Shown: positions 2,646 through 61,225 of the stretch, in pieces
Layout of the letters: every line of letters begins with the position of its first letter
Numbering within the stretch: the first letter of the stretch is position 1
NCBI RefSeq assembly: GCF_025960875.1
Contig: NZ_JAODLR010000002.1
Location: forward strand, 310,001 to 374,000
Source: Crystallibacter permensis
GTDB lineage: Bacteria; Actinomycetota; Actinomycetes; Actinomycetales; Micrococcaceae
DNA length: 64,000 nucleotides
Direction: 5' to 3'
Made by a program: the position numbers and the translations under genes
The notes under the pieces: generated by a model
The model's input: the letters and a program-made list of their open reading frames with translations, nothing else
Databases searched by the model: none
What the model was told of the DNA's origin: nothing

Positions 2646-2648
2646 CCC

Positions 2649-13533: not shown

Positions 13534-13559
13534 CAACGACGGCGAGTGGTTGCGTTGCG
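13534..13559 (+). repeat. Direct repeat, right copy, beside the P450 gene
   Basis: Second copy of the 26-base element at 12152-12177, one base different, in the same orientation. Its central GGCGAGTGG is also one arm of the hairpin at 13541-13571. Confidence 0.6.
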
Positions 13560-13571: not shown

Positions 13572-13610
13572 GTTTCGCTCGGTCTGCTTATTGAGAACCA
13601 GCGCCAACCG

Positions 13611-14723: not shown

Positions 14724-14788
14724 TCGAAACTCGCATTCAAGAGAGGGATAGGGGTGGGACTGACCAGGGACGCTGACGGTACGCCCGG

Positions 14789-15598
14789 CTACATGACGCT
14801 GTTGAGGAAGGCTGTGGTCCGGGGATGCTGCGGATTGTCGAACACCGCGGCCGGCACACCCGATTCCACCACCACGCCTCCATCCATAAAGACGACGTTG
14901 TCCGCGGCGCTGCGGGCGAAGCCGATCTCGTGGGTCACGACAATCATGGTCATCCCGTCGGCGGCGAGTGTCCGCATCACGTCCAGGACATCGCCGACAA
15001 GCTCGGGGTCCAGTGCGCTCGTTGGCTCATCGAACAGCAGGAGCTGGGGGTCCATGGCGAGCGCCCGGGCAATCGCGACGCGCTGTTGCTGCCCGCCCGA
15101 AAGCTGCGCCGGATAAGCCTTCGCCAGGTGGGCGAGGCCCACCCGGTCCAGCAACTCCATTCCGCGCTTGAGCGCCTGCTGCTTGGGCACCTTCTTCACT
15201 CCCACGGGCGCGGCCCAGATGTTCTCCAAAGCGCTCATGTGGGGGAACAGGTTGAACCGCTGGAACACCATGCCGATGCTGCGGCGTTGCCGGGCTACCT
15301 CGCGCGGGTTCATTTCGAAGACCCGGTCCTGGCGCTGGGCGTAGCCGATCAGTTCGCCGGCCACAGAGATGCGGCCGCCGTCGATCCTCTCCAAATGGTT
15401 GATGCAGCGCAGGAACGTGGACTTGCCGGAGCCGGATGGGCCCAGGAGGCACATCACCTCACCGGCATTGACGGTCAGTGAGATGCCTTTCAGCACCTCC
15501 ACGCTGCCGTACTGCTTGCGGACGTTGCTGGCAACCAGAAGCGGTGACGCCGTTGCGGCGGCGGGTCGGGTCCGGTGGGTTGCGAGGGCGTCAGTCAT
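14789..15598 (-). CDS. Polar amino-acid ABC transporter, ATP-binding protein
   Basis: A 269-aa ATPase with Walker A (GPSGSGKST), Q-loop (GMVFQRFNLFPHM), signature (LSGGQQQRVAIARAL), Walker B (LLLFDEPTSALDPE) and H-loop (VVTHEIGFAR). The FNLFPHMSALEN stretch and the size place it in the GlnQ/HisP group that powers uptake of amino acids or opines. The start lies inside the permease gene by eight bases, so the two are translationally coupled. About 20 extra N-terminal residues (THRTRPAAATASP) precede the domain. Confidence 0.92.
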   Translation of the reverse strand: MTDALATHRTRPAAATASPLLVASNVRKQYGSVEVLKGISLTVNAGEVMCLLGPSGSGKSTFLRCINHLERIDGGRISVAGELIGYAQRQDRVFEMNPREVARQRRSIGMVFQRFNLFPHMSALENIWAAPVGVKKVPKQQALKRGMELLDRVGLAHLAKAYPAQLSGGQQQRVAIARALAMDPQLLLFDEPTSALDPELVGDVLDVMRTLAADGMTMIVVTHEIGFARSAADNVVFMDGGVVVESGVPAAVFDNPQHPRTTAFLNSVM

Positions 15599-43436: not shown

Positions 43437-44606
43437 TCAGGCGTGCGGCAAGTCAAAGACGGTGCCGAAATCAGTGTCGCGCACATCCCGCTCCCCGGCC
43501 AGCCTGCCGAGCCGGTGCAGCGTTTCCATGTTTTCCGGAGCGTCCATGGCACTCAGCGAGCGGACGTTCTCCGGTGCAGCCAGTGCTTCATCCAGGGTCC
43601 GGATGCTCTCAGGGCGCAGGTCCACGTTGTACCGCAGGTAGCTCATCAACGGCGTGCCGGCGAGCAGATCGCCGTCGAGCTCGCCCACTTCCCGGTCCAG
43701 CACCCTGGCGGTGGGACTGGTAGACATCCACTGGAGCATCGTCTCCTGCAGCACCGCGCAGTCCTGCATCACGGACATCAGCGCGCTGATGGCGTGGCTT
43801 GCGGCCAGTCTTGCCTTGCGGACCGAGGGATCCGACGCCCCGGTGCCGACTGAGACGATCAGGAGCTTGTCTGCGCCGGTCTCCCAGCCCACCCCGTAGC
43901 CTTTGAGCGAGGCATACATGAATGCCTGCAGCGCGGGATTGTTGTACGGGCTGACGCCGCCGTCCACAAAGTTGCCGGTAATGGACTCCCGACCAGAAGC
44001 GCCCGTTATGGTGATGGTCTCCGGTTCAAAGTACGACGGCGCCGCAGTAGACGCGCGGACCACCTGCCACAGGTGATAATCACCGTTTCCCATCCTGCCG
44101 TTCTCCCCTGCCGCGAAATACCTGCCGCCGGGGTTGTTACTCACCGGCCAAGGACTCCCGGTATCCAGACGTTTGAGTACCACCAGCAGTCCGGTCAGCA
44201 ATTCAGAGCCGCACAAGGTGGTGTCCGCGCCGAACAACTGTTTCAGCTCGTCGGTCAGCCCTGCCTCGCTGTACTTGGCGCGCAGCAGACCCTGGCGGAA
44301 CAGGCTCCGCTCAAACACGCGGTGCCCGAGGTTGAAGTACTTTTCCCGCAACTCTGCGACGCTCAGTCCCTGGGCCAGAGCCGCTGCGATGATCGCCCCG
44401 GTGGAGGTCCCGGCGATCAGGTCGAAGTAATGGCACAGCCGGAAATCCTTCCCGCCGCCATGGCGGTCCCGGAGCAGGTCCTCGACCTTTTCCAGGATGC
44501 CGAGGCTCAGAATCCCGCGCAGGCCCCCGCCGTCGAGGGCGAGAATGCGCTTGGGTAGGCCGTCCGGATGGAAATGTTCGTCAAGGGTCAAAGTCTGGTA
44601 TGCCAT
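43437..44606 (-). CDS. Patatin-like phospholipase
   Basis: A 389-aa protein with the patatin catalytic dyad: the oxyanion loop DGGGLRG near residues 24-30, the nucleophile serine in GTSTGA near residue 67, and the acid in FVDGGVSPYNNPA. It should hydrolyse membrane lipids. CapV and other patatin effectors of antiphage systems degrade the membrane when activated. No cyclic-nucleotide synthase is adjacent. Instead a TIR-STAND-WD40 gene lies 36 bases upstream in the same direction, so the two may act together. There is no secretion signal, so it acts inside the cell. Confidence 0.85.
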   Translation of the reverse strand: MAYQTLTLDEHFHPDGLPKRILALDGGGLRGILSLGILEKVEDLLRDRHGGGKDFRLCHYFDLIAGTSTGAIIAAALAQGLSVAELREKYFNLGHRVFERSLFRQGLLRAKYSEAGLTDELKQLFGADTTLCGSELLTGLLVVLKRLDTGSPWPVSNNPGGRYFAAGENGRMGNGDYHLWQVVRASTAAPSYFEPETITITGASGRESITGNFVDGGVSPYNNPALQAFMYASLKGYGVGWETGADKLLIVSVGTGASDPSVRKARLAASHAISALMSVMQDCAVLQETMLQWMSTSPTARVLDREVGELDGDLLAGTPLMSYLRYNVDLRPESIRTLDEALAAPENVRSLSAMDAPENMETLHRLGRLAGERDVRDTDFGTVFDLPHA

Positions 44607-44642: not shown

Positions 44643-47600
44643 TCAGCCGGCTTTGCCGCCTGGGACCGGAAGCTCCGGGCAGGGCGGGTCATAATCGAAA
44701 TCCGACGATATCCATTGGCGCCACTCCTGCTCGCTGATATTCCTGGTCAGCTTGGCGCACAAGGCGTTCGTCCAGTCTTTAGGGACCGGCCACACGCGCA
44801 CACTGTTGTCCTGACTGCCCGAAATGACCTGCCGGCTGTCGCTGCTGAAGGCAACAGTTTTCACTGCGTCCCAGTGTCCTGCCATCGGATCACCGATCGA
44901 CTTGCCGGTCGCATCCCACAGACGCACCATCCGGTCGGCTCCCCCGGACGCTATGTACCGGCCGTCCGGGCTGAAAGCTACGTGGTTCACCGCGCTCTCA
45001 TGTCCGCGCATAGGTTCCGCCGCCGGCTCGCCGGTGTTCGCGTCCCACAGGCGTACCGTCTTGTCACTGCTGGCCGAGGCAACCCGCTTTCCGTCGTGGC
45101 TGAATGCCACCCCGTTCACCGCTGCTTCATGCCCGGCAAGCGCATCGCCCCGTTGTTTTCCGGTCTTCGCGTCCCAGAGCCGCACCGTCTTGTCATCGCC
45201 GCCGGAGACTATCAGTTGCCCCTTGGGACTGAAGGCGACGCCGTTTACGTCGCCTTCATGGCCGATCATCGGCTCCCCCACCGGCTCGTTGGTCTCCGCG
45301 TTCCACAGGCGCACGGTCTTGTCCGCGCCGCCGGAGACGATCAGCTTCCCGTCGGGACTGAAGGCGACACTGTTTACGTGTCCTTCATGGCCAGTCATGG
45401 GCTCCCCTACCGGATCTCCTGTCTCCGAGTTCCACAGGCGCACGGTCCCATCCGCGCCGGCAGAGACCACTTGATTTCCATCCGGGCTGAAGGCAATCCC
45501 GAGCACCGGGCCCTGATGCCCGCTCATCTCCCCTTCGGCCGTTCTGGTGCCCAGGTTCCAGATCGTCATGGTGCCGTCACCACCGCCGGAAACGGCGCGG
45601 TCTGCTTCGGGGCTGATCCCCAGGCTCAGGACCCAGCTGGCCTGCTCCATCGGGACGCTGGCCGCGTTCCAGAGACGGATGGTGCCGTCACCCATGCCTG
45701 AAAGGATCCGCCGGCCGTTCGAGCTGAAGTCCACGCTCCACACTTCCAGCCCGTGACCGGTCATCGCCGCGCCGATCGGCTCGCCCGTTTCCACATTCCA
45801 CATTTGCAGGGTGTAGTCCGTACTTCCGGAAACCAGCCGTTCTCCGTCCGGGCTGAAAGCAACACTTAGCACCCAGTTGGTGTGCCCGGTCATCGTTGCG
45901 GAAGGCTGGCCTGTAGCCAAATCCCACAACACTACCCTGCGGTCGTTACTGGCCGAGGCGAGCCGGTTTCCATCGGGGCTGAACGCGACGCCGTTGACCT
46001 GTCCGCCGTGCGCCTCCAGTACGAACAACTGCTGGCCGCTGATCGCGCCCCAGACACGGACAATGTTGTCGGCGCCGCCGGACGCAATCCTTGTCCCCGC
46101 TGGATCGATCGCGACACTCTTCACCGGGCTGCCGGGGACTCCCATCGGCCCCATGAGCTGCTCGCCACTCTCCGCGTCCCACAGCCGTACCGTGCCGTCT
46201 TCGCCGCCCGAAACAATGCGCGCCCCGCCGTCGTTGGGGCTGAAAGCAACACTGTTGATAAACCCGTCGTGCCCGGTCAGGGGCTCCCCTCGAGACTTGC
46301 CCGTCTCCGTGTCCCACAGCCGGATCGTCCCATCCTCGCCGCCGGAAACAATGCGTGCGCCGCCGTCGTCGTCGGGACTGAAAGCCACGCTCTTCACTGC
46401 GCCCTCGTGCGCCTTCGCCTGCTCCCACACCTGCTCACCGGTCTCCGCGTCCCACAGCCGAATAGAGCCATTGGCGCTGCCGGAAACCGCCAGCTTTCCG
46501 TCCGGGCTGAACGCTGCACTGTTGACAGGAGATGCCGGCCTCTCCTCGGAGGCGGGAGTCACCTGCACCATCTTGTGGACATCGCGCTGGGCAACGACAG
46601 CGCCCACAATGACCCTCTCGCCTTCCGATGTTTGCACCAGCGACTGCGCGGCCAGCATTTGCTGCATGCCACGTAGCTCGCCTCCGGGGCGGGCCCCGGC
46701 CAACATGGACTGGCCTTCGGCAGCCAGCTGCAAGGCGGTGGCCTCCTTGTTGTGTGCTATGGCTTCGTTTGCGTTCGCGCGGGCTTCCTTTTGGGCAATG
46801 GAGGCGAGGACGAAGCCGAGCACAGCAACGAGTGCGATGACAGCCGTTACCGCCAGCACCATTCTGAGCACCTTCGACCGTTTCCGCAGCACCGCCGCGT
46901 GCGCCTCGGCTGCTTCCTGTTTCTCCCGGGCGGACCGCAGCTCGGCTTCCTTCCGCCGCTTCTCCGCCGCACTCCGTTTCTCTTCCCGGGCACGTGATGC
47001 CAGGAGGAAAGCGCGGTTCGGATCCAGCCGGTTCCGGAATCCGGGTCGAGCGGACAGCCGTTCGGCACCGATGAGTCTTCCCCCTTCGAAGAGCCACGCT
47101 TCATTGCGGGAGCTGCGTTCCCAAGCGGCTGCTGCACGCTCAAGGTTGTCCGCCTCTTTGAGGTCCTCCCGCTCGGCGGCGAGCCACCCGGCCAACTCGT
47201 CCCACTGGCGCAAGAGGCTCTCCAGCGCCACCTCGATAACGGTTTCCCCGCCGCGGTTGTCCTGAACCAGCAGGCGCTTGTCCACCATCGCATCGACCAG
47301 CGGGCGGGCATCGCCCGGCAGATCGGCCAGACTTGCCACCCTGCGGATGGGCTGATCGTTGTCCGGATTGATCGTCGCCAGCCACGGAATGAAGGCAGAC
47401 CGCAGCAGCGCCAGCTGCCGCTGCCGCTGCTCAGGGTGATGGGATAGCAGCGCGTCGACCTCCGTCTGCACCACCCGCTGCAGACCGCCCATCGCCTGGT
47501 ACTCGGCAAGGGTAAGTTGGCCGCTGGCGCCATAGTCCTGATAGAGGCGCGCAAGGGTCAGGGCAAGCAGCGGCAAAGTGTCTGCCCCTGCAGTGCAGTC

Positions 47601-48905
47601 GGCCAACAGGCGGTCCACCAGGGCCGGCTCCAGCGTCAGCGGATGTCCGGCCGCCGTGGCCCGGGCAGCGGGGCCGAGGATGACTTCTTTGAATTGGACC
47701 ACAGGCATCGGTTTTAGCTCGTCGAACACAACGCTTTTAATGCCGACCAGTTGCGGGGCGGTCTGCAGCGCCTCGTAGAAATCCGCACGGATGGTGCTGG
47801 CCACGATGAGCGCCGGCCCCGTACCGTCGTCGTACTCAAGCAGCCGCGCCACCAAGTCCAGGAAGCCAGCGGCCTCTGGACCCGCGTCCGCGTTGAAAAG
47901 TTCCTCGGCCTGGTCGAGCGGCAGAACAAGGGTGGGCGCCGGTGATTCCTCCAATGATTCAGGGTCCTCAGTTTCCTCCGGAGCCTCCTGCAGCCGTTCC
48001 GCAGCGACGTTCCGGGCTTCCAGCAGCCATTCCCGGATGCGGTCGGTGTTGTTTCGCACGCAGGCTTCCTTGATCTGCCCCAGCGACGGATGCCTCAGCC
48101 CCAGCCCCGTGCGCAGCTCCTGTACGGCGCGGGCGAACCCCTGCTCTCCGGTGAGTGCGCTGCGCTCCGGACGCACAATCTCCAGCGGCAGGAAATGACG
48201 GTCCTCCCGCCGCAACCGCGGCAGCAGTCCCGCCCGCAGGAATGAGGACTTGCCTGTCCCGGAGGGGCCGAGGATCACGAACAGGGACTCCACCCCGGAA
48301 CTGCGCATCCCCCGCAGCGCGTCGAGGCCCCGGACAATCTGACCGTCCCTGCCGAAAAACACCGCCGCGTCCGTTTCCTGCAGCGGCTCCCATCCCCGGT
48401 AAGGGGCCCGGTCCGGATCGCTCGACGGCGGCCAAGCGAAATGTTCCGCCCCGATCCCGGCCTTCCGCAACCCCCGGCGCAACTGCTGCAACGCCTCCGT
48501 ACGAAAGACGACGACGCCGGCCCTTCCGTTTGTGTTGACCGGGATCTCGCTAGCCGGACCATCACCGAACAGGTCGCAGCGCTGCCACTCGCGGGTGATG
48601 CTCTCCACAGGTTCGAGCCGTGCGCACAGGATCAGTTTGCCGAGGTTCTCCGCCGTCCGGTACTCGGTCAGGCATTCGCGCGAGGATTCCCAATGAGCCG
48701 AGATCAGGCAGATCACCACCTCGCAGCGCTCGTTGGCCCGACGCAGTGCCTCCTTCCAGCGCTCGCCCGGTGCGATGCCTGTGTAAGGATCCAGGTCCAG
48801 GAAGATCTCGTCCTCCAGCCCCGGCACCTGCTCCACGAGCCAGCGTTTCAACGCGATGGCCTGGAGGCTGTCTCTGCTCGAATGGCTCAAGAAGACGCGA
48901 GACAT
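44643..48905 (-). CDS. TIR-STAND-WD40 giant protein (putative defence sensor/NADase)
   Basis: A 1420-aa protein. Residues 1-130 are a TIR domain (RVFLSHSSRDS, EDEIFLDLDP, VVICLISAHW; the glutamate near 81 in CLTEYRTAE fits the NADase residue). From about 165 a STAND ATPase begins (PYRGWEPLQETDAAVFFGRD), with Walker A GPSGTGKSS at 213-221 and Walker B VLPLDQAEELFN. One transmembrane helix lies near residue 700. Residues of about 790-1375 form 14 WD40 repeats (GTIRLWD, GTVRLWD, KTVRLWD and so on), enough for two seven-blade propellers. In related systems the propeller senses a ligand and the TIR depletes NAD+. It opens an operon with patatin. GGGGTGAG is a good ribosome site. Confidence 0.87.
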   Translation of the reverse strand: MSRVFLSHSSRDSLQAIALKRWLVEQVPGLEDEIFLDLDPYTGIAPGERWKEALRRANERCEVVICLISAHWESSRECLTEYRTAENLGKLILCARLEPVESITREWQRCDLFGDGPASEIPVNTNGRAGVVVFRTEALQQLRRGLRKAGIGAEHFAWPPSSDPDRAPYRGWEPLQETDAAVFFGRDGQIVRGLDALRGMRSSGVESLFVILGPSGTGKSSFLRAGLLPRLRREDRHFLPLEIVRPERSALTGEQGFARAVQELRTGLGLRHPSLGQIKEACVRNNTDRIREWLLEARNVAAERLQEAPEETEDPESLEESPAPTLVLPLDQAEELFNADAGPEAAGFLDLVARLLEYDDGTGPALIVASTIRADFYEALQTAPQLVGIKSVVFDELKPMPVVQFKEVILGPAARATAAGHPLTLEPALVDRLLADCTAGADTLPLLALTLARLYQDYGASGQLTLAEYQAMGGLQRVVQTEVDALLSHHPEQRQRQLALLRSAFIPWLATINPDNDQPIRRVASLADLPGDARPLVDAMVDKRLLVQDNRGGETVIEVALESLLRQWDELAGWLAAEREDLKEADNLERAAAAWERSSRNEAWLFEGGRLIGAERLSARPGFRNRLDPNRAFLLASRAREEKRSAAEKRRKEAELRSAREKQEAAEAHAAVLRKRSKVLRMVLAVTAVIALVAVLGFVLASIAQKEARANANEAIAHNKEATALQLAAEGQSMLAGARPGGELRGMQQMLAAQSLVQTSEGERVIVGAVVAQRDVHKMVQVTPASEERPASPVNSAAFSPDGKLAVSGSANGSIRLWDAETGEQVWEQAKAHEGAVKSVAFSPDDDGGARIVSGGEDGTIRLWDTETGKSRGEPLTGHDGFINSVAFSPNDGGARIVSGGEDGTVRLWDAESGEQLMGPMGVPGSPVKSVAIDPAGTRIASGGADNIVRVWGAISGQQLFVLEAHGGQVNGVAFSPDGNRLASASNDRRVVLWDLATGQPSATMTGHTNWVLSVAFSPDGERLVSGSTDYTLQMWNVETGEPIGAAMTGHGLEVWSVDFSSNGRRILSGMGDGTIRLWNAASVPMEQASWVLSLGISPEADRAVSGGGDGTMTIWNLGTRTAEGEMSGHQGPVLGIAFSPDGNQVVSAGADGTVRLWNSETGDPVGEPMTGHEGHVNSVAFSPDGKLIVSGGADKTVRLWNAETNEPVGEPMIGHEGDVNGVAFSPKGQLIVSGGDDKTVRLWDAKTGKQRGDALAGHEAAVNGVAFSHDGKRVASASSDKTVRLWDANTGEPAAEPMRGHESAVNHVAFSPDGRYIASGGADRMVRLWDATGKSIGDPMAGHWDAVKTVAFSSDSRQVISGSQDNSVRVWPVPKDWTNALCAKLTRNISEQEWRQWISSDFDYDPPCPELPVPGGKAG
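44790..46535 (-). repeat. Tandem WD40 repeats inside the TIR-STAND gene
   Basis: About 14 units of 40-46 codons each, with the pattern V-x-S-V-A-F-S-P-D-G...S-G-x-x-D-x-T-[VI]-R-L-W-[DN]...GH. Some units are nearly the same in DNA (for example units ending VRLWNAET and VRLWDAKT), so unequal recombination could change copy number. Confidence 0.75.
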
Positions 48906-49115: not shown

Positions 49116-50372
49116 CTAGTCCTGCCGGAGCCGATCGATCTGGCCTTTGACCAGCGTGGGAATGTCCGCCGGTACGGACGGGAACCGCTCCGTCGCCGTG
49201 TCGAGCGCAGCGTCCAGCCGGTCAAGGGTCTCGTCGACCGTCTTTTCCGCCATCCGCCGCGGGATACCCCAGGTAGCCCCTTCATCGGCCAGATGGCTGC
49301 GGGTCATCCGCGTGATGTTCTCCATTCCGCCAACCCAGAGGCCCGCGGTCACGGTCGCGGGAAGGAAGGCCAGAGTGGGCACGACATCGTAAAGCGGTGA
49401 GACCGTCAGCCCACCCGGCGTCAAGAGAACAGAGGTGTTCTTGGCATGGGCATCGGCATTGCATAGTGCTATGTTGACGATGACCTGGCGCAGCAACACC
49501 TGCAGCTGTTCACGCGGGTTGCGGGCATACTGGCGCAGGACCCGTGAAATCTTGACCAGGGACGGCCGGACGGCCGGAGTCCCGTCCTCGTTTTTCACGC
49601 GCGAGTCCGAGTACTTGGCCAGCGGCGGTGAGCCGAGCATCTGGCAGCCGTCTTCCTGGTGGATCCGTCTGGTGCCCCCGTTCCCGGGTTCCCGGTCGTA
49701 GCGGGTGACCATCAACGCCGGCCTGCCTTGGGCGCTGGCTTGCAGGGAGACCTCGGCGGCCGGCGTTGCGGCGGACGCGACGGTCATCGCCCAGCCCTCT
49801 GCGGCGGCCATGCCCGGATACTCGATCTTCTCCGGCTTGATGATGTGGGTGGACAGCGCCCCTTCAAGCGGCAGTGCCCACCCCTCCAGTGTCCGGGCAA
49901 GCAGCAGCTTGGACTGGACCCCGCCGAGCGAGCTGCGGACCACGCCGCCACCGGCCACGGGCCACTGCGGCAGGGTATCCAGCCGTGCGGCCACCTCATC
50001 GTCGGTAAGGGGCTGGTAATGCCCGCCTCTGTTCGGCTTGAAGCCTTCCGGTCCGACGGCGACGGCGCCGGCACACTCCCAGCCGATGGCTTCCAACAGG
50101 GCGAAGTCATCGTAGGCGGGAACTCCTGCCGCTGCCGCTGCGGAAGCCCGCTGTTCGCCTTCAGGCAGCAGGTTCGCGAACCAGTTCCGCGTTGGCACGG
50201 GCCCGACTGGCTCGGCGGCCACCGGCAGGGAGCAGGAGAGCAGAGGCTGGCCGGCATGGCGGGTCACGGTTTCGGGAGTGTAGCTGAAGGTGGCGCTGCG
50301 GTTGCGGTGGATCTCGATGCGTCCGGTCAGCTGGCCGTGCAGGAGGACGTCGAGCCGGCGGACGGCAGGCAT
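49116..50372 (-). CDS. hipA: HipA-type serine/threonine kinase toxin
   Basis: A 418-aa protein. It has the HipA N-terminal couple domain (RRLDVLLHGQLTGRIEI, NWFANLLPEGEQR), the Gly/Ser-rich ATP loop SLGGVQSKLLL, THIIKPEKIEYPGMAAAEGW, the catalytic loop CNADAHAKN and YDVVPT, the DFG equivalent. HipA in E. coli phosphorylates glutamyl-tRNA synthetase and slows growth. Its own activation loop serine is not obvious. The start overlaps the hipB stop by one base, the usual antitoxin-first layout. Confidence 0.93.
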   Translation of the reverse strand: MPAVRRLDVLLHGQLTGRIEIHRNRSATFSYTPETVTRHAGQPLLSCSLPVAAEPVGPVPTRNWFANLLPEGEQRASAAAAAGVPAYDDFALLEAIGWECAGAVAVGPEGFKPNRGGHYQPLTDDEVAARLDTLPQWPVAGGGVVRSSLGGVQSKLLLARTLEGWALPLEGALSTHIIKPEKIEYPGMAAAEGWAMTVASAATPAAEVSLQASAQGRPALMVTRYDREPGNGGTRRIHQEDGCQMLGSPPLAKYSDSRVKNEDGTPAVRPSLVKISRVLRQYARNPREQLQVLLRQVIVNIALCNADAHAKNTSVLLTPGGLTVSPLYDVVPTLAFLPATVTAGLWVGGMENITRMTRSHLADEGATWGIPRRMAEKTVDETLDRLDAALDTATERFPSVPADIPTLVKGQIDRLRQD

Positions 50373-52115: not shown

Positions 52116-52145
52116 TTGACAGCGTCAGATGGGCGGCTGGACAAT
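52116..52145 (+). promoter_or_regulatory. Possible sigma-70 promoter for the 52-61 kb operon
   Basis: TTGACA at 52116-52121, an 18-base spacer and GACAAT at 52140-52145. The first is a perfect -35, the second a 4-of-6 match to the -10. It is upstream of the gene at 52290 in the right direction. Confidence 0.4.
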
Positions 52146-52289: not shown

Positions 52290-53207
52290 ATGCGCGCCAG
52301 CGTTCAAGATTATTGGTCCGCTTTTAATGCTCCGCTTGAGGGCCGCGTTCCGTTCATGTATCTCGACGTCAAAGGCTTCGTCAGTACCGGCGTCGGAAAC
52401 CTGATAGATGCTACTGCACGGGAACTCTCGCCGCCGACTCCCGCCGAACGCGATGCATCATTGCGGATTACCCGGGCTATCGCATGGCAACGAAACGGCG
52501 GCGGCCCTGCTGACCCTGCTGAGATCGACGCTGAGTGGGACAGAGTAAAGTCCCGCATGGATCTGGCGCCGAGAGGCGGCGGGCATTTCGCTCCCCCAGT
52601 AACTTCCCTGCACATCACGAACGAGGAAATTGATCGGATCGTGGATGAAAAGCTGCATCAGATGGAGACCGTGCTCAAGGGCCGGTCGGATTTTTCCTCT
52701 TTCGATGCCTGGCCTGCAGACGCGCAATTGGCCTTGCTCAGCATGTCCTGGGGCATGGGTCCTATGTTCAGATTTCCCAGGTTTCAAGCGTTTGTATCGC
52801 AGAGGAACTGGACAGGTGCTGAGGCAGAGTGCCGATTCAATCCGGAAGTCGGAACGATCGTCACACGCAACAATCTCAATCAGCAATGTTTCCGGAATGC
52901 AGCCCGTGTAGATGCAGAAGGTCTCGACCCAGAAGTGCTGCTGATCAGAGGCGGTTCGCAGGGGCCTGTGGGCCCCGACACTCTGATTGACTTGGCGACG
53001 ATAGCCGGAGTCCAGTCGGCCCTTATAGCGCTCGGATACGATCCGGGCTCAATCGATGGCATAAGCGGTAGCCGGACCACCGCAGCTATACGGCAATTCC
53101 AGACAGATCAGGGTCTGGCCTCAGACGGTATCGCCGGCCCTAATACGCGCACTGCTTTGGCCGCAGCGCTTGGTCAGCTCGGCATTCAATCGGTAAATGG
53201 AGGCTGA
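52290..53207 (+). CDS. Lysozyme-like protein with a peptidoglycan-binding repeat
   Basis: A 305-aa protein from the ATG at 52290 (AGGGA eight bases before). A GTG at 52197 would add 31 residues with poor context. Residues 10-40 read NAPLEGRVPFMYLDVKGFVS then TGVGNLI, like GH24 lysozymes. E17, D26 and T33 are spaced close to the E-D-T triad of T4 lysozyme. DAQLALLSMSWGMG is like the helix that packs behind. The end (IAGVQSALIALGYDPGSIDG, then TTAAIRQFQTDQGL) is a PGBD_1 domain. There is no signal peptide, so it is not Sec-exported. First gene of the four-gene operon. Confidence 0.7.
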   Translation: MRASVQDYWSAFNAPLEGRVPFMYLDVKGFVSTGVGNLIDATARELSPPTPAERDASLRITRAIAWQRNGGGPADPAEIDAEWDRVKSRMDLAPRGGGHFAPPVTSLHITNEEIDRIVDEKLHQMETVLKGRSDFSSFDAWPADAQLALLSMSWGMGPMFRFPRFQAFVSQRNWTGAEAECRFNPEVGTIVTRNNLNQQCFRNAARVDAEGLDPEVLLIRGGSQGPVGPDTLIDLATIAGVQSALIALGYDPGSIDGISGSRTTAAIRQFQTDQGLASDGIAGPNTRTALAAALGQLGIQSVNGG

Positions 53208-53210
53208 AGG

Positions 53211-53969
53211 ATGAACGCCTTCGACTTGGAAATGAGCAATCCCTTCCCTGCCGGATACGACCGTTCCTATGGAGGCCCGGGGCAGGGAGGACATGTTTCG
53301 GAGCACTGGTACATTCAGTACGGCATGGATCTCGGCGCTCCCGGTGGCACAGGGGTTCACGCAGCCTTCGACGGACATATCACCAAGCTGAATACACAGA
53401 ATATCAATCTCTCAACCGGCAAGGTCTATGGGGCGGAAGTCTTTATGCGCTCCCACAATGACCGAATGGGAGCGTTCTTCACGCATCTGAACGATCTGCC
53501 CTCGAGTCTGTCACAAGGTTCGCAAATCACCCTGGGCCAGCCGCTGGGACGAGTCATCGCCACATCTACTCCTCACGTACATATGGCCTTGGTTGAGATC
53601 GTCAACGGCCAGTATGTGGGTGTCGATTTGTACCAGTTGTTCCAGTCAACGGCGAACACGACGGACACTTTCACCGTCACCTTCCACCAGAACGGCACAA
53701 CGCCGCCTTCCTACGCAGGCGGAACCAACGGCGGAACCGGCGAGTTCGGGGAGTTCGGCACGCTATCCACTGTGTATGAGATTCAAGGTGCCCTGATCGC
53801 GCTCGGGTATGATCCCGGCGCACGGGACGGCATCAGCGGGCCCCGAACGACAGCGGCCATCATGCAATTCCAAACGGCCAATGGCCTCGTTGCCGATGGA
53901 TTGATGGGTCCGATAACCCGCGCCGCTATGGGCGCGGCTTTGGTTGCCGCAGGTCTAATCCCGGGCTGA
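53211..53969 (+). CDS. LytM/M23-like protein with a peptidoglycan-binding repeat
   Basis: A 252-aa protein starting three bases after the previous stop. Residues of about 28-135 fit the lasso-like M23 fold: YIQYGMDLGAPGGTGVHAAF, FFTHLNDL and HVHMALVEI. However, the first zinc histidine (expected four residues before D40 as H-x3-D) is a glutamine (Q36), while D40, H92, H122 and H124 are present. It may be inactive or use other ligands. The last 60 residues are a PGBD_1 domain almost the same as that of the previous protein. No signal peptide. Confidence 0.7.
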   Translation: MNAFDLEMSNPFPAGYDRSYGGPGQGGHVSEHWYIQYGMDLGAPGGTGVHAAFDGHITKLNTQNINLSTGKVYGAEVFMRSHNDRMGAFFTHLNDLPSSLSQGSQITLGQPLGRVIATSTPHVHMALVEIVNGQYVGVDLYQLFQSTANTTDTFTVTFHQNGTTPPSYAGGTNGGTGEFGEFGTLSTVYEIQGALIALGYDPGARDGISGPRTTAAIMQFQTANGLVADGLMGPITRAAMGAALVAAGLIPG

Positions 53970-54018
53970 GCTGGTCACCGGTCCTTCAACCCTCCTGCCA
54001 CTATCCGAGGAGCGCATC

Positions 54019-56997
54019 ATGAGCGGCAGCTTCCGTTTCGGTGTCTTTCGTCCCGACGACCTCCTGGTGCTTGAATTCGAGTTCCATAACGTGGATCTGG
54101 CTGACGATGGCCGCGCGGTCGTACCCCATGTGGACCCGGGCGGTGCATTCGCCGTCGTACGTTTTCCACCTCAGGCGATAGCCGAAGAGGTATGGGATGG
54201 ACCTGTAGCCAGGCCGCCTATCCGCACCGCCCTTTCGGGTCCTACACGTTTGGTGTTTCGTCTACCCACAACCGGTGCGCCGATCCCGTTGACCGTCGAG
54301 GGACTGCTCGATTGGAAAACGTGGGAGCCAGCGCTCTCCGCGGCGGCGCTACCGCGCGGAACAGAACCGGGAGAAACAAGCCCGGAGTTGGTGCCACCGG
54401 ATGATCTGGAAACGGCCATCGAGTTCCCCCATCGTCTGCAGCTCTCACCGGATGCTCTGGGGCAGTGGCGGACGCTGCACGGCACTACCGATGTCGAGGA
54501 CGTGCACCAACTGTGGAGCGCGGTGCTTTGTACACAGAATAGTGACGGCAGTACCAGCCCGGGTGCCGACGTCCGCGCGCTTGCGGACCGCACTGGACCC
54601 ACCCCGTTCATCTCTTCACTGACCGAGGACGAGCGGCACGAGATTGTTCAGCTCAGCTCCAACTTCCGCATAGAACTCCCCCCAGCTGCGGGCGTCTCCC
54701 GGTACAGACCGGTTCCGATCAAGGCGAACAGACTGGAGCTGACCGCGCTGGGCGCAAACGCAGACCTCGAGAGCGAGTGGGAGTTTCCCCTGCTACCTCC
54801 CGAAGAGTTGCAAGGCAGCGGCATCGAGCCTTTGGGGCTTCGCCAATATCAGCATGTTGCTACATTGGGCCGCGACCATTTCGTCCGGACGGTGCGGCTC
54901 GGCTTTCTGTGCGGAACCGGGCACCGGGCCGTACTGGTGAAAACCGTCGAGCGACTCCCTGACGGTATCGAAGTAGTAGGACAGGCGCCAGGCGGCGGCG
55001 CGCTTTTCAGCTCCAAGGGCTACCTGCTGCGGAAATTGGAAGTGGTGGTCCAGGAACCCGTCATCAACTACGGCCCACTGGCCAAGGCATATGCCTATGA
55101 AGGCCGCGAATTTCCGCTGAGCAGCATTCGCCTCACTACAACATCTGCAGTAATTTATCCGTGGGCGGAAGGTGACGGGCCGTTCTGGCTGCTGGATCTG
55201 GAGCGGAATCTGCTGCGCTTCAACGCCACGGGCACCGATCTTGTCGGCAGTGCCCTGGATTTCACCCTTCCCTTGATGTTCGTCCCCTACGATTGGATCG
55301 ACCATCACCGGACCATCGCCGCCGTATTCCATAACCAGGATCCCGGCATGGTGGCCACCATCGGGTTTTCCGGTCGGCATCTGGCCGTTGCTCCGCCTGG
55401 CGACAGGCCTGGTTCTACGGTCTTGAAGGTGGACACTATCCGCTATGACATTGAGCAGCCACCCCACACCGCCGACCCGGCACCCGATTTTCCCATGAAC
55501 GCCGCCGGCGCTCCGCGGTCCTACATTCCGCGTTTCCTGCCCCGCGTCGCCTCCATAACTGCCTCCATCCCTGCTGTGGATGATCTCCTCGGAACAGGCA
55601 CGGTCTCCGAGCTTGTCCCCGACCCCGACTATCTGAAGCAGGGGTTCGATAATGCCGGCAACCCTGCACAGACTTTTGTGCGGATGCGTGACGAACTGCC
55701 GATCGCACTTCCATCGCAACGCGGCGGCGGCTTGGCCAGCCCCGCACAGAATGCGAAGGCCTTATCCCGGACGCTGGGACCTGTCTCGTCCCCGGAACAA
55801 CTGCAGCAGGGAAAACTGGATCTGTCCGCGTTCAAGGATACGAAGTTCCTGGGCACTATCCGGCTGCTCGATCTACTACCGGCCGACCTTCCATTCGATG
55901 GCTCCGCAGCAGCCGCGGCTGCCCCTCCAAGTCAGGCCGAGCTGGATAATCCTCAGTTCAAGGTCAATCCGCCCCGGCTCACATCCCGCCGTATTCCCGC
56001 CGCGACGGGTGCCGCCCCGACCGTTGAGTCCCGGTTTATCTGGAAACCTACACTGCTGCCGGAATATGATTTCGGCTTCCTCAAGATCGGCATGCAACAG
56101 GCGGATCTGCTGCTGGATGCCACCACCCTGCTGACCCAGGAAGGCGAGGGCGGTGCCGTCGTTATCGGACGGCTGCGGAATATAGAGCTGACCTTTGCGG
56201 AGGCACTGAGCGCGGTATTCGGCACGCTCTCTTTCCGTGCCGAAGCCGGCAGGAAGATGGAGGTCGGCGCCAAGGATGTCAAGATCGCTTTCGCTGGTCC
56301 ACTGGAATTCGTCAACGCCCTGCAAAGCATCCTGCCCTCCGACGGGTTCGACGACCCTCCGTTCCTGACCGTCGACTCGCAAGGGGTTGTCGCCGGATAC
56401 ACCCTCGGTGTGCCGAGTATCGGCGTGGGCATCTTCAGCATCCAGAACATCGCCCTCACCGCCGCACTATCAATCCCCTTCACGGACCGTCCGGCGGGAG
56501 TGCGGTTTGCGGTCTGCGAACGGCACAAGCCTTTCCTGCTCACCGTCAGCCTCTTCGGCGGAGGCGGGTTCTTCGCTGCCGGTGTTAGCGCCAACGGTCT
56601 GGAACAGGTCGAGGCTTCTCTGGAGTTCGGCGGCAACATTAGTCTGAATCTGGGAGTCGCTTCAGGCGGCGTCTCCGTGATGGCTGGAATTTACTTCGGG
56701 CTGACCGGTACCAGCGTCACTCTCACCGGTTACCTGCGGTGCGGCGGGTATCTGGATGTGCTGGGGCTGATTTCCATCTCGCTGGAGTTCTATCTGGCAT
56801 TCACCTTCCGCAAGAAAGACCCTGGCAGCGAGGTTTGGGGCCAGGCGAGCCTGACTGTGAGCGTGAAGATCGCATTCATCAGCAAGTCGATCAGCTTATC
56901 GGTGGAACGCCGGTTCGCTGGATCCGGCGGGGATCCGACGTTCGCACAGTCTGTCCGGCCTTCCGATTGGGTCGGCTATCTTCAGGCGTTCGCCTGA
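54019..56997 (+). CDS. Giant protein (992 aa) of unknown function
   Basis: I do not recognise a family. The N-terminus (FRFGVFRPDDLLVLEFEFHN, then AFAVVRFPPQAIAEEVW) looks like a beta-rich, non-secreted domain. The middle has VIYPWAEGDGPFWLLDLE and PLMFVPYDWIDHHRTIAAVF. Residues of about 837-968 are glycine-rich and strictly alternating in polarity (FLLTVSLFGGGGFFAAGV, LEFGGNISLNLGVASGG, GYLDVLGLISISLEFYLAFT), as in transmembrane beta-barrels or amyloid-like sheets. It has no Sec signal. The 49-base gap to the LytM-like gene has a GAGGAG-type ribosome site. It is probably the partner of the 1398-aa protein. Confidence 0.6.
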   Translation: MSGSFRFGVFRPDDLLVLEFEFHNVDLADDGRAVVPHVDPGGAFAVVRFPPQAIAEEVWDGPVARPPIRTALSGPTRLVFRLPTTGAPIPLTVEGLLDWKTWEPALSAAALPRGTEPGETSPELVPPDDLETAIEFPHRLQLSPDALGQWRTLHGTTDVEDVHQLWSAVLCTQNSDGSTSPGADVRALADRTGPTPFISSLTEDERHEIVQLSSNFRIELPPAAGVSRYRPVPIKANRLELTALGANADLESEWEFPLLPPEELQGSGIEPLGLRQYQHVATLGRDHFVRTVRLGFLCGTGHRAVLVKTVERLPDGIEVVGQAPGGGALFSSKGYLLRKLEVVVQEPVINYGPLAKAYAYEGREFPLSSIRLTTTSAVIYPWAEGDGPFWLLDLERNLLRFNATGTDLVGSALDFTLPLMFVPYDWIDHHRTIAAVFHNQDPGMVATIGFSGRHLAVAPPGDRPGSTVLKVDTIRYDIEQPPHTADPAPDFPMNAAGAPRSYIPRFLPRVASITASIPAVDDLLGTGTVSELVPDPDYLKQGFDNAGNPAQTFVRMRDELPIALPSQRGGGLASPAQNAKALSRTLGPVSSPEQLQQGKLDLSAFKDTKFLGTIRLLDLLPADLPFDGSAAAAAAPPSQAELDNPQFKVNPPRLTSRRIPAATGAAPTVESRFIWKPTLLPEYDFGFLKIGMQQADLLLDATTLLTQEGEGGAVVIGRLRNIELTFAEALSAVFGTLSFRAEAGRKMEVGAKDVKIAFAGPLEFVNALQSILPSDGFDDPPFLTVDSQGVVAGYTLGVPSIGVGIFSIQNIALTAALSIPFTDRPAGVRFAVCERHKPFLLTVSLFGGGGFFAAGVSANGLEQVEASLEFGGNISLNLGVASGGVSVMAGIYFGLTGTSVTLTGYLRCGGYLDVLGLISISLEFYLAFTFRKKDPGSEVWGQASLTVSVKIAFISKSISLSVERRFAGSGGDPTFAQSVRPSDWVGYLQAFA

Positions 56998-57028
56998 AAC
57001 CGGTCCAGACGAATATCGGAGTCAGCGC

Positions 57029-60000
57029 ATGATTCGACATCAGCTCGTGCAGTGGATTCTGCTGCCTAACGGGCTTACCTCTGACGGGCTCCTGGCGGCA
57101 TCCGTGTTTATTGCACCAAGGCTACGTCCCGGGCAGGCGGCCACGCTGGCTGATTTTCCGGACTTTGAAGACTGGCCGGACACGCTCCGAGGATTGACTC
57201 TAAATTTGGAGCGGGGTGACGGCGCCACTACGGCACCGCGGCAGGTCATGGTTCATAGAAGCAGCCAGCTGTGGCAGGCGCTTTTTGTCCCAGCTACCAA
57301 GGTCCGTGCCTTCGCCTTCGCTGACTTCGCGGACCGGCCGCTGGTCAGCTACCCGGTGAAGGAAGTGCTGAACCATTTACGCAACCGATGGGCAACCCTG
57401 GCGGCACGCAATGTGGACGACCTTCCGCTGACCAGTTCGAATGCCTCGCCGATGGGTTCTGGGCGGGAGCACCGGGACGTGCCTAACCTCGCGGGACACT
57501 TTGAAGAGCTGCTCGACGCCGGCCGCATGGATATTTTCGAAGGGGTCAGGAACGGCGAGCAGCTTTCGGCCAGACTGGATGAGAGGCTCCGCGACTCGGC
57601 GGCTCGGGCCCGTGAACTGCGCGGACAGCACAGCTACGAGCCGCAGGAACTGATCCGTCCGTTCGGTAGTGGGGGAAGTCCTGCCGAAGCGTTCTATGCA
57701 CTGGCCGGGTTCCATGCACGGCCGCTGAGAGAACCCGCAGATTTTCCAGCGGACCGGGAACAGGCAAGAGCCATACTCGAAGAGAAGCTGGATTTCCACG
57801 ATCATCTCTCGTCGCTAGGCGGCCACCCTGCGGTGCTCCGTAGCCTCGGCCTAGTCCTGGATCTGGTGGTCGACCCCAATTTTGTGCCAGTGAACAGCGA
57901 TGACGGTCCGCCGACTATGCTCCGGCTAAGGGTGGAGCGGCCGTCTTCCTTCCCGGCAAGGGAAGATTCAAATGCGGAAACATGGAACTGCGACGTCACC
58001 CCGTGGACCAGCTGCCGGTTAGCGGAAATCGACGGCTCCGCCTTCTTCAATGCAGCCGATCGGACCCAGCGCAAGGATTTCGCCCATGGGTTCCTGCATC
58101 TGGACCCGCAGCGGTACGAAGCGGCGGCGGTGGATGTCGACGGCCTGGCGCTCAAAGCCCTGAACATGGCAGCCACCTTGCAGAACCAGGAGAACCGGGA
58201 GCAGCGTCCCCTTGAGGAACCGGAGCGTGACGGTGTCCCCGCCGCGCGGACCGGCGGTGTCGCCCTGGTGCACGCCGGCCATGCAGAGGACCTGCATAAC
58301 GACTTCTATCAGGCCCGCGCAAACAACGACATCTTGGAGCAAGAACCGGACCATCCGCCGGTCCTTGCCGCAGAGGACCTGATCCGAGGCTACCGGATGG
58401 ACATCTGGGCCGCCGGGCATTGGCGGTCCTTGCACCAGCGGCATATGACTTACACCCCGGCACGGGATCCGGGCCTGTCCTTCGATACCGACGACGAAGG
58501 AAACGTCGAGCTCTCGCTGACCACCGATATGGGTTCCCCGGGCCAACCCGCCGACCCTGATGGCGCGCTCTACGTTCATGAAGCCCTGGTCACATGGGAC
58601 GGCTGGAGCCTGTCCGTTCCGCGGCCCGGAGACGCCGTCCTGCAGGAACCGGCGGCACCGGAGGCTGGGACGGATATTGGCAGCATGCAGCTGTCCATCT
58701 CCACGTCTCCAGCCCCTGGAACGCTGCCCCGGCTTCGGTTCCAGGACGGATACCGGACCCGGCTCCGGGTCGTGGATCTGGCCGGCAACTCGTACAGCCT
58801 GCCGGGCGCCACCAGTTCCAGCGACCTCCTGGACGGAACCGGGCGCCCGGAATACGTCACGACGGCCCCGGCCGATGCGTTGCCGTACCTCCGCTTCGAG
58901 CCGGTTCCACCGCCGGAACTTGTACCCAGGCATCCGTTTAATCCCGGCGAAGGTCTGGAACGGCTTGTCATCCGCAGCACGCCCGGACAATCTGCAAGCG
59001 ACTACGCGCGCTCCGGCGAAGTAGCCGCAGGCACGGCCTACCGCTTCCACGAATTCAGCGACCGGCACCTGGCTGCAGCGAAATCCTCCCTACAAATGTT
59101 CGAGACCCACGGCATGCTTGACGAGGCCATCGACGCCGCCCGCGGCCTGTCCGCGTCCGAGGCCGAATCACGGGTGCAGCGTTTTTATGACATTGCGGTC
59201 CGGGAGAGCGGCACATTTCACGACAGCCCGGGGGCAGAGTTCAACACCATCGGAAGCCACAATGGGGAACCCCAGGGGTACGTCACGATCGACGCTGACG
59301 CGGTGGACCTTCCCTACCTGCCTGACCCGCTCTGCGCGGGCGCCAAGATTCGGGTATGGCTGCACCCCGGCGAAGCTGAAACTGTGCTTGACGTTCCCTT
59401 CAGCTTCGCCGCCGGAACCGGCGTGCATCAGCCGTCGCCGCTGCGCCTTCGGCTGGAGGAAGGCGATTACTATGCCGGCTATGACGGGAATCTGGTTACG
59501 GTCCGGCTTCCAGCTGGCCGCACCTGCCGGCTCCGGCTATCCTCGCTGCTTGGCGGAGACCCGGACTTGTTCGGGATCATGGGCTGGTGCCGCAGTGAAC
59601 TCGGACAAGCCGAGTCCGACGTCGTGTACGAGGCGATAAGGAACAGCACCCACTGGATGACAACCCCATGGCGGGACCTGGTCCTGGTCCACGCCGTCCA
59701 GCGCCCTCTGGACCCCCCGTCCCTGGTACTGAACGCAGCCGATTTCCACGGCTTCAGGTCCGTAGCACGAAACAGAGGTAGCGCTGCTGCGGATTTGGAA
59801 GGTGAACTGTACTTTGACCTGCCGTCCACGGCCCAGCTGGACCTCTCCGCCTCATGGGACGACGTTGTGGACGACCCGCAGAAAAGCTACTCAAGCGCAC
59901 AGCACATGGTCCATTCGGTGCACGGGGATGTCTTCTCCCTCCCGATACCCGAGCCGTTCGGCACGCCATGGATCCCTGAATTGGCCCCGCTGATCGAACC

Positions 60001-61225
60001 ACGCGACGAACGTACTGTTGCCTTCCGGACCCACGGGTGGGAGAACGAATCCCCCGAGTCACGGCGCCTGCAGCTTCTCGCCGACAGCGGACAGCCGGGT
60101 CTGCCGGCCGCTGAGCGCCGCAGGCTCGAAGCCGGCGCATCCCAGCTCGAGAAGCTGCGGTCCCACGAGTTCGGCGACACCAAGTACCGGCGGGTCTCCT
60201 ACCTGCCCACCGCAGCTACCCGGTTCCGGGAATACTTTGATCCGGCCATGCCTGCCGCAGACGGCCAGGCGGCCGGCGTACCTGTGACCATCGATATCCT
60301 CAGCAGTGCGCCGCCGGCAAAGCCCGTGGTGCAGCAGGTCTTGCCGCTCATGGGCTACGCCCAAACGCAGGAGAACGGCGGTGGAACTACCAGCACACGC
60401 AACGCGCTCGGCTTGCGCGTGTGGCTGGCACGTCCGTGGTTCTCCTCCGGCGCCGGCGAAAAGCTTGCCGTAGTCTGCAACGGTGGAGGACCGCTGACGC
60501 ATGAAAGCACCCAAGCACGCGAAATAACGTTCATAGCCCAAGATCCTGCCCATGGCTCGCCGATGCCGCAGCCACTGACTGCACGGTCTTTCCCCACCGC
60601 AGACGCACCACTATGGGGACAGGTCATCGTGTCCGGCCATACCAGCGACACGGCGCTCTTCACCCCACAGTGGGATGAAGACAGCGATGCCTGGTATTGC
60701 GACATCCAGTTCGACACCGGGAGCGCCTACTTCCCGTTCGTCCGGCTAGGGCTGGCCAGATACCAGCCAATGTCAGTTGCCGGCTGCGAATTGTCCCCAC
60801 TTGTTCCCACCGCATTCGTCCAGACCGTGCCCCACCGGAGCCTCACCATCTTTCCAGCCTCAGACGGCACCATCACCGTGTCATTGACCGGTCCGGCCCC
60901 GTCGTCGTACCGCGACGCCCAAGGAGACACTATCGCAGGGACAAATCTCGTGATCGCCGTTGTGGAGGAGCAGGACCTGCGCATCGAAGACCCGTACGTC
61001 GGCTGGGAGGCCGTTAGCGCTGACACTGAACTCGCCGCCATAGCGAACCAGGACGGAACCACCACTTGGTCCGGCCCCATACAGGTACCCGCCTCGGCGG
61101 GAAGGAAACTACGTCTGGCCGTTCGCGAGTATGAACTGCACCCCGCTGACGACCTCAGCGCCGGACCGGCCGCCAGCTTGGTTGCGACCCGTCGGCTCGT
61201 CCACGCCGACGTTGTACCGCTGTAG
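57029..61225 (+). CDS. Giant protein (1398 aa) of unknown function
   Basis: The largest protein after the TIR-STAND gene, 31 bases behind the 992-aa gene. No known family is visible to me. It looks multi-domain and mostly beta. An N-terminal part contains VSVFIAPRLRPGQAATLADF-like text (SVFIAPRLRPGQ, DFPDFEDWPDTLRG). A helical stretch lies near residues 150-270 (AGHFEELLDAGRM, ARAILEEKLDFHDHL). There is a middle domain with RGYRMDIWAAGHWRSLHQRH and a C-terminal domain with SAYFPFVRLGLARYQP, then LSPLVPTAFVQTVPHRSLTI. No transmembrane segment and no signal. Good codon use along the whole length supports real coding. It ends the operon. Confidence 0.6.
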   Translation: MIRHQLVQWILLPNGLTSDGLLAASVFIAPRLRPGQAATLADFPDFEDWPDTLRGLTLNLERGDGATTAPRQVMVHRSSQLWQALFVPATKVRAFAFADFADRPLVSYPVKEVLNHLRNRWATLAARNVDDLPLTSSNASPMGSGREHRDVPNLAGHFEELLDAGRMDIFEGVRNGEQLSARLDERLRDSAARARELRGQHSYEPQELIRPFGSGGSPAEAFYALAGFHARPLREPADFPADREQARAILEEKLDFHDHLSSLGGHPAVLRSLGLVLDLVVDPNFVPVNSDDGPPTMLRLRVERPSSFPAREDSNAETWNCDVTPWTSCRLAEIDGSAFFNAADRTQRKDFAHGFLHLDPQRYEAAAVDVDGLALKALNMAATLQNQENREQRPLEEPERDGVPAARTGGVALVHAGHAEDLHNDFYQARANNDILEQEPDHPPVLAAEDLIRGYRMDIWAAGHWRSLHQRHMTYTPARDPGLSFDTDDEGNVELSLTTDMGSPGQPADPDGALYVHEALVTWDGWSLSVPRPGDAVLQEPAAPEAGTDIGSMQLSISTSPAPGTLPRLRFQDGYRTRLRVVDLAGNSYSLPGATSSSDLLDGTGRPEYVTTAPADALPYLRFEPVPPPELVPRHPFNPGEGLERLVIRSTPGQSASDYARSGEVAAGTAYRFHEFSDRHLAAAKSSLQMFETHGMLDEAIDAARGLSASEAESRVQRFYDIAVRESGTFHDSPGAEFNTIGSHNGEPQGYVTIDADAVDLPYLPDPLCAGAKIRVWLHPGEAETVLDVPFSFAAGTGVHQPSPLRLRLEEGDYYAGYDGNLVTVRLPAGRTCRLRLSSLLGGDPDLFGIMGWCRSELGQAESDVVYEAIRNSTHWMTTPWRDLVLVHAVQRPLDPPSLVLNAADFHGFRSVARNRGSAAADLEGELYFDLPSTAQLDLSASWDDVVDDPQKSYSSAQHMVHSVHGDVFSLPIPEPFGTPWIPELAPLIEPRDERTVAFRTHGWENESPESRRLQLLADSGQPGLPAAERRRLEAGASQLEKLRSHEFGDTKYRRVSYLPTAATRFREYFDPAMPAADGQAAGVPVTIDILSSAPPAKPVVQQVLPLMGYAQTQENGGGTTSTRNALGLRVWLARPWFSSGAGEKLAVVCNGGGPLTHESTQAREITFIAQDPAHGSPMPQPLTARSFPTADAPLWGQVIVSGHTSDTALFTPQWDEDSDAWYCDIQFDTGSAYFPFVRLGLARYQPMSVAGCELSPLVPTAFVQTVPHRSLTIFPASDGTITVSLTGPAPSSYRDAQGDTIAGTNLVIAVVEEQDLRIEDPYVGWEAVSADTELAAIANQDGTTTWSGPIQVPASAGRKLRLAVREYELHPADDLSAGPAASLVATRRLVHADVVPL

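Follow-up and report, generated by a model that had tools for sequence, protein, structure and literature searches.

Introduction

Proteins that lack a signal of their own can cross the membrane through the twin-arginine translocation (Tat) system by riding on a signal-bearing partner; hydrogenases and formate dehydrogenases are established cases of such hitch-hiking (PMC10924467, in the accessible part of that article), and effectors of extracellular contractile injection systems (eCIS) carry a hydrophilic N-terminal signal (PMC11297309, likewise in its accessible part). Here we compare with these systems a locus of four consecutive genes, g1 to g4, located in a 64,000-nucleotide stretch of the Crystallibacter permensis contig NZ_JAODLR010000002.1 (positions 310,001 to 374,000; hereafter the window). 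A first-pass annotation of this DNA had read the four genes as one operon of two wall-hydrolase-like proteins and two giant proteins, and had suggested a delivery or killing system that targets the cell wall, possibly as cargo of an eCIS or as a phage-derived module. Our analysis indicates that g3 and g4 form an undescribed module of two genes whose distribution is wide and patchy; the giant partner proteins that they encode probably work outside the cytoplasm, and in some actinobacteria they are accompanied by wall-binding accessories, g1 and g2.

Results

The giant genes g3 and g4 are conserved as a pair

The gene g3 (54019-56997, plus strand) encodes 992 amino acids (aa), predicted to be an all-beta giant with a long amphipathic beta meander at its C-terminus, and g4 (57029-61225, plus strand) encodes a 1398-aa giant of predicted tandem immunoglobulin (Ig)/Fn3-like sandwiches; both belong to undescribed families. 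They follow g1 and g2 on the same strand, and the gaps between the four genes, 3, 49 and 31 bases, agree with those first reported. A candidate promoter 5′ of g1 (TTGACA-18-GACAAT, 52116-52145, plus strand, 10 of 12 consensus positions) is included among the promoter-like sites of the region, the number of which is at chance level (2 seen vs 2.2 expected).

To define the conserved part of the locus we used a pattern scan with the C-terminal domain of g3 on 84,980 species genomes, which returned 209 stretches encoding relatives, a number that need not equal that of genes or species. Ranked by similarity to the window g3, the best 80 stretches were taken as the locus set, so that locus counts lean towards the window's kin; in this set one strain is the source of both L058 and L074, and L044 is from the same strain as genome G004. 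A g4 relative lies directly after g3 in 79 of the 80 loci, and in the other one (L092) the contig stops 100 bases past g3. Order and strand of the pair are always the same, with a g3-g4 gap of -11 to 309 base pairs (bp) that falls between -20 and 60 bp in 75 of 80 cases (viral contig L043 counted, L092 left out), and the combined coding size ranges from ~2,200 to 5,200 residues. In addition, g4 is encoded beside the g3 relative in each of the eight plasmid loci and 11 genome stretches examined. The synteny proposed for the four genes thus holds for g3-g4, while the N domains of g1 and g2 were found in five of the 80 loci; we dropped the conserved four-gene operon, as conservation across loci covers the giant pair only.

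Two further arrangements were considered and discarded. A g3-g4 fusion, suggested by long open reading frames (ORFs) in L035 and L038, proved to be different frames. A universal third gene was not supported by flank clustering or by a Pfam tally, neither of which gave a family beside most pairs: the clustering returned lineage-level synteny (Aminicenantes and kin), scattered families, transporters and sulfatases among them, as well as the g1/g2 set, and in the tally of 85 neighbour ORFs (106 picked, 82 used after 24 had been discarded manually as implausible or because of their size, and three plasmid ORFs added) none of the best 25 of 76 families occurred in more than three.

The pair is spread over ten named phyla, as counted from the 72 of 80 loci that could be placed, and its occurrence is patchy: a g3 relative is present in two of ten own-genus genomes, in two of 39 relatives overall and in 11 of 396 genomes of a phylum sample. 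Plasmids carry g3 relatives as well, with 13 such records belonging to Streptomyces, Rhizobium, Sinorhizobium, Cupriavidus, Diaphorobacter, Ruegeria and Agrobacterium. FastTree trees of g3 and g4 (47 shared rows) correlate with r = 0.92, a value reached in none of 300 permutations; the alignments used 47 g3 and 54 g4 sequences, with split or truncated copies omitted (e.g., L027) or a single open frame taken (L040). Phyla are intermixed on the 47-row tree, with 11 phylum changes among the seven phyla present, and a Chloroflexi metagenome-assembled genome (MAG) groups beside the window's actinobacterial branch, a placement for which MAG contamination is a possible cause. The recurrence of the giant pair across phyla is more than chance. 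Because of the near-invariant adjacency and the matching trees, it is very likely that g3 and g4 act as an obligate pair or complex.

The matched g3 stretches of L057 (G444) and L060 (G447) each contain one in-frame stop, and therefore some copies may be decaying.

The giants fall outside known families

Searches of Pfam, PHROGs, NCBIfam and PADLOC assigned neither the window g3 nor its g4 to a family, apart from one sub-threshold Ig-like Pfam match of g4 (E = 0.22), and their profiles found no match among PDB sequences. When 17 members of the g3 family were compared with Pfam, six families were matched by one or two members each, the best being Apolipoprotein (E = 5.3e-5) and all others having E ≥ 0.015, while no Pfam match was obtained for the four g4 relatives scanned. 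In six annotated plasmid records the giants are labelled hypothetical proteins, and no paper mention of six plasmid giant accessions was found in a search from which most subscription literature fell outside and in which unnamed families elude keywords. The earlier statement that both giants match no family thus stands for the libraries searched; their novelty is judged from these libraries and from a literature search that lacked most subscription papers, keywords being unreliable for an unnamed family. That a gene pair retained side by side across ten named phyla has no match in the libraries searched represents a large gap in bacterial genome annotation. Anti-phage defence was considered as a role and set aside, as PADLOC had no match for the giants.

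The fold search on predicted structures of both giants that had been proposed at first pass gave only generic matches. The g4 model (residues 204-1398; predicted local distance difference test, pLDDT, 84.6; predicted template modelling score, pTM, 0.67) is a chain of beta sandwiches, and its best 50 listed matches are mostly generic Ig, Fn3 and macroglobulin-type beta-sandwich chains with template modelling (TM) scores up to ~0.3. Serial beta sandwiches are what g4 shares with alpha-2-macroglobulin-like chains in the Foldseek matches, but it differs from them in that the CxEQ thioester motif occurs in one of 54 rows and the TM score is ~0.1, and the alpha-2-macroglobulin identity was rejected on the motif count. 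The best-conserved part of g3 is its last third; here residues 860-967 are modelled as six strands of 14-18 residues each, with a hydrophobic face opposite a small polar one. The fold matches listed for g3 include outer-membrane barrels and lipid-binding proteins, none of them convincing, and therefore a membrane or lipid role is a guess only.

These six strands bear on a two-component membrane-damaging weapon, in which the g3 beta sheet would insert in the target membrane, g4 would bind the target and g1 and g2 would digest the wall. Some neighbouring hydrolases, with Tle1-like phospholipases in two and patatins in two of the 85 neighbour ORFs (one patatin being a plasmid ORF already so annotated when added to the tally), and a subtilase would fit such a device, but the neighbours are heterogeneous and their counts come with no background comparison. 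No pore-former fold was found among the matches listed, and flank clustering gave no recurrent small immunity-like partner gene. We consider this weapon unlikely.

Twin-arginine signals on g3 relatives point to an extracytoplasmic complex

In order to investigate export, the g3 relatives were scanned for a twin-arginine (RR) motif with a hydrophobic stretch free of charged residues behind it, both ahead of the g3 core. Copies with a cut 5′ end were omitted, which reduced the 80 loci to 69, and L066 and L070, in which the RR is followed by a stretch with a charged residue, were scored negative. A Tat-type signal was found in 23 of these 69 relatives vs two of 442 internal 120-residue windows, some of the scanned g3 stretches exceeding 120 residues, unlike the control windows. 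A start codon lies at most 45 residues before the motif in 23 of 23 positives; in the longest frame, the motif lies within the first 41 residues in 17 of 23 and within the first 72 in 19 of 23 (two being between 42 and 72), with late motifs at residue 103 in L067, 316 in L109 and 429 in L106. None of the 80 g4 relatives carries such a signal. On the 47-row tree, Tat-positive g3 account for 13 of 24 members of one half and for none of the 23 members of the window's half.

A tatA gene directly follows the pair at two of the 81 loci for which 400 bp or more of downstream sequence is available. It lies 49 bp after g4 in Sinorhizobium meliloti LMB1 (L031; annotated as TatA/TatE family; TatA_B_E, E = 2.4e-9) and 12 bp after g4 in a Symbiobacteriaceae MAG (L103; Pfam TatA_B_E, E = 6.2e-20), and the g3 of both loci has an RR motif, read by eye in L031 and found by the motif scan in L103. 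Since the Tat signal is on g3 and none is on g4, we infer that g4 rides with g3 in the Tat-bearing half of the tree. Compared with the Tat hitch-hiker complexes as they appear in the accessible part of PMC10924467, part of the g3-g4 family is alike in its adjacent genes with a twin-arginine signal on one partner, as well as in the tatA beside the pair at two loci; the giants differ in that no cofactor or redox domain was found, in being very large and mostly beta, and in the window's g3 copy, which is without twin-arginine signal. The g3 relatives of L030 (Ruegeria plasmid) and L031 (Sinorhizobium plasmid) exceed 3,000 aa and have a long N-terminal extension with an RR signal motif. PaoABC is reportedly another Tat hitch-hiker complex.

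The complex would then act outside the cytoplasm, which is likely for the Tat-bearing half of the tree and somewhat favoured for the window's half. In the window, as had been noted at first pass, no Sec signal is apparent on any of the four proteins: a hydrophobic N-terminal signal was not found in the first 60 residues of g1 to g4 (maximal 15-residue Kyte-Doolittle mean, 0.5-1.45). Because the window's half of the tree has no Tat signal, release there would have to take another route.

The wall-binding proteins g1 and g2 are occasional partners of the pair

The gene g1 (52290-53207, plus strand, 305 aa) encodes a lysozyme-like N domain with no family match followed by PG_binding_1 (E = 2.9e-17), and g2 (53211-53969, plus strand, 252 aa) encodes a degenerate M23-like domain followed by PG_binding_1 (E = 2.1e-16). 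The peptidoglycan-binding repeat that had been seen as nearly the same in both proteins is indeed present once in each, the copies being 68% identical over 53 aa. In the g1 N domain E17, D26, S32, T33 and a GxGN are invariant in five of five rows (the window and four relatives), and all five satisfy E-x8-D-x5-[ST] with GxG, a pattern reminiscent of the GH24/T4-lysozyme signature. The domain had no Pfam match, its profile gave only one unrelated weak match against PDB (E = 0.48), and the PHROGs endolysin family was matched in one of the five rows only (E = 0.33). For g2, the Peptidase_M23 match (E = 4.3e-9, 36.9 bits vs a cut-off of 28.7) and the HxH motif, retained in the copies read except L047, are shared with M23 endopeptidases, but in the window copy as well as in four relatives Gln or Glu stands in place of the first zinc-ligand His, which makes activity doubtful. 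The metal-ligand roles of M23 enzymes are assigned to this His and to the HxH positions. Therefore g2 may bind the wall only and its reading as an enzyme is weakened, so that the description of g1 and g2 as wall-hydrolase-like stands for PG_binding_1 on both and for the M23 profile match of g2, and not for a complete set of zinc ligands in g2.

A g2-like domain occurs in the flanks of five of the 80 giant loci (L044, Arthrobacter; L047, Georgenia; L077, L079 and L114, Streptomyces) and a g1-like domain in four of those five, the L079 copy being a 72-residue fragment; the bare wall-binding repeat also matches weakly in L056, L059, L073 and L080. All five loci fall in the signal-less half of the tree, and their g1/g2 genes lie upstream, downstream or on the opposite strand relative to the pair. 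In the phylum sample each N domain was found in two of 396 genomes including the window's own (E 0.001 for g1 and 1e-10 for g2). We conclude that g1 and g2 are an optional accessory of the pair and that the association is real; as judged from gene neighbourhoods, a functional link to the pair is probable. Relatives of g1 on two Streptomyces plasmids (L135 and L136) lie directly behind a BTAD-type regulator, next to phospholipase-D-like and DUF2235 genes in L135 and to an S8 peptidase in L136.

Since g2 resembles a wall binder more than an enzyme, g3-g4 could be a cell-surface fibre or adhesin that g1 and g2 tether to the peptidoglycan or for which they make space in it. The g4 model as a chain of Ig/Fn3-like domains would suit this structure, as would the LGFP-repeat protein that sits between the g1/g2-like set and the pair in L077. 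Such a structure, however, does not predict the strict two-gene pairing, no Sec signal is present, and LPxTG-like strings at any position occur in just 12 of 47 g3 and seven of 54 g4 rows. A surface fibre of this kind is rather unlikely.

The first domain of g1 also bears on a phage-derived lysis or tail module, as it has one tailed-phage relative with 37% identity over 99% of the domain. Like phage endolysins with PG_binding_1, g1 has the wall repeat, lacks a signal and shows the residue pattern mentioned above, but it differs from them in an N domain without Pfam or PDB sequence match and in being host-encoded beside the giants. In one IMG/VR contig the pair has terminase, capsid and protease genes as neighbours; this is one of 81 loci, and there the pair and the phage genes are on opposite strands. 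Moreover, g3, g4 and the g2 N domain had no match in 50,697 phage records, and neither giant had a PHROGs match. The suggestion of a phage-derived module fails on this evidence: a phage origin of g3-g4 is largely refuted, and we regard it as highly improbable. In that contig (L043), the pair at 1024-15221 lies within ~3 kb of the opposite-strand terminase, capsid and protease genes, at what may be a prophage border or as cargo.

An injection system upstream gives no positional support for a cargo role

The eCIS said to lie ~40 kb away is real. Its sheath gene (G000:C2:308880-310142) ends at the window start, and its cluster includes a VgrG-like gene (window 2649-4172) and a baseplate-J gene (window 4935-7505), both ~40-45 kb from g1; 55 kb separate the giant pair from the sheath gene. 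On a rival reading, all four proteins would be effectors or cargo loaded into, or acting with, this particle. In favour of such a role, none of the four proteins has a Sec signal, and the giants resemble eCIS effectors as large signal-less proteins in an eCIS-bearing genome. They differ from effectors as described in the accessible part of PMC11297309 in lying outside the eCIS cluster, in lacking DUF4157 (not matched by Pfam in the window proteins) and in having no hydrophilic N-terminal tag on g3 or g4, and also in the Tat signals on their relatives. By mean hydropathy, which is not the score of that paper, the first 20 residues are not hydrophilic on average in g3 (0.47) and g4 (0.19), and weakly so in g1 (-0.32) and g2 (-0.65).

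At the genome level, 24 of the 34 genomes traced from pair loci (35 minus L086) have a PF04984 sheath, as do four of five genomes with g1/g2 beside the giants (three of them Streptomyces); among pair-carrying Actinomycetes isolates other than Streptomyces the count is 10 of 12 vs 22 of 168 in a class sample with Streptomyces included (Fisher p 1e-7 to 4e-7, for an assumed baseline of 17/159 or 17/137 with Streptomyces set aside). Among these 12 isolates the Nonomuraea sheath match is below the family cut-off, and Georgenia and Amycolatopsis have none. By contrast, the phylum sample gave a sheath in three of 11 carriers vs 34 of 385 (p = 0.07), Streptomyces gave 11 of 13 vs a baseline of 63 of 101 (p = 0.14), and two of the four sheath-bearing own-genus genomes (n = 10) lack the pair. 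PF04984 matches phage tails too, and the comparison was unmatched for genome size and for isolate or MAG status. Because the 63/101 baseline is already high, Streptomyces accounts for much of the sheath co-occurrence.

Linkage was then considered in 23 of the 24 sheath-bearing genomes. Sheath and pair are on the same contig in four, at distances of ~30-394 kb: ~30 kb in Agromyces, the one case below 100 kb, and ~290-390 kb in the other three; linkage can be missed because most assemblies are drafts. The cargo proposal thus receives no positional support, and the genome-level co-occurrence is a suggestive, confounded lead that lends it none either. We consider a role of the four proteins as eCIS cargo improbable.

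The Agromyces case is A. kandeliae (L120; G464:C12), with the sole such closeness of sheath and pair in the 23 relatives checked. Two PASTA-domain proteins (window 8552-9604 and 11173-12117) are encoded within or just after the eCIS cluster of the window and are possible wall-binding parts of the particle. Upstream of the window, a 790-aa caspase (Peptidase_C14) protein is encoded ~4 kb before the sheath gene (L130:2355-4727).

Discussion

The best overall explanation, which we hold tentatively, is that of an exported two-gene complex with g1 and g2 as occasional partners. The core would be the module g3-g4, whose partner proteins may form one very large complex. In the Tat-bearing half of the tree, g4 would most likely fold onto g3 in the cytoplasm and cross the Tat translocase as a hitch-hiker. 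It is predicted to serve as an Ig-like scaffold or adhesive arm, while the terminal two-faced beta meander of g3 may be the part contacting a membrane or hydrophobic ligand, a suggestion that is weak; on the model, contact of g3 with a membrane or lipid is somewhat unlikely. Within the half that includes the window, the module would sometimes recruit g1 and g2, the simplest role of which would be to anchor to, or to open, the peptidoglycan where the giants act or leave.

Several points weigh against this explanation. That g3 and g4 form a complex is something we infer from genes and trees. The Tat test was our own motif scan rather than a trained predictor, many of the Tat positives are interrelated (Aminicenantes/Acidobacteriota), and a complex this large would be a heavy Tat load. 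The window's own giants have neither a Tat nor a Sec signal, and export in the window's copy is therefore an extrapolation from the other half of the tree. Relatives of the g1 and g2 N domains were not found in the examined flanks of 75 of the 80 loci, an absence that is partly assessed because flanks of 5 kb or more are available on each side of only 53 of 80 loci, and a profile search found g1 relatives in surroundings devoid of giants, namely in G229, in two Streptomyces plasmid regions and in one phage region. As regards structure, the g3 model is mediocre (pLDDT 68.4, pTM 0.53, 12 sequences), its two-faced strands may equally pack inside an ordinary double sheet as its core, and neither giant gave a whole-fold match (TM up to ~0.3, best 50 matches per search), so that the fold searches identify no activity for them.

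A fuller version of the exported complex, which we offer as a speculative possibility, is that the horizontally spread pair assembles in the cytoplasm, crosses the membrane folded (one half of the tree using Tat, in some cases with a TatA of its own, and the other half a wall-opening g1/g2 route) and acts as an undescribed surface or membrane device. Should the complex indeed leave through Tat, that system would be handling a very large folded load, and the signal-less half, together with its wall-binding partners, would offer a natural case for comparing two ways out for one machine.

Other genes in the window

Three genes on the minus strand lie before g1. A 1420-aa nSTAND1 NTPase with WD40 repeats (44643-48905) gave a PADLOC match to HEAT-ARM_XIII, probably via its WD40 repeats, and a patatin-like protein (43437-44606) is encoded beside it. 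The third gene (49116-50372) encodes a HipA-type protein (HipA_C, E = 5.2e-40) and is conserved with its neighbours in G004.

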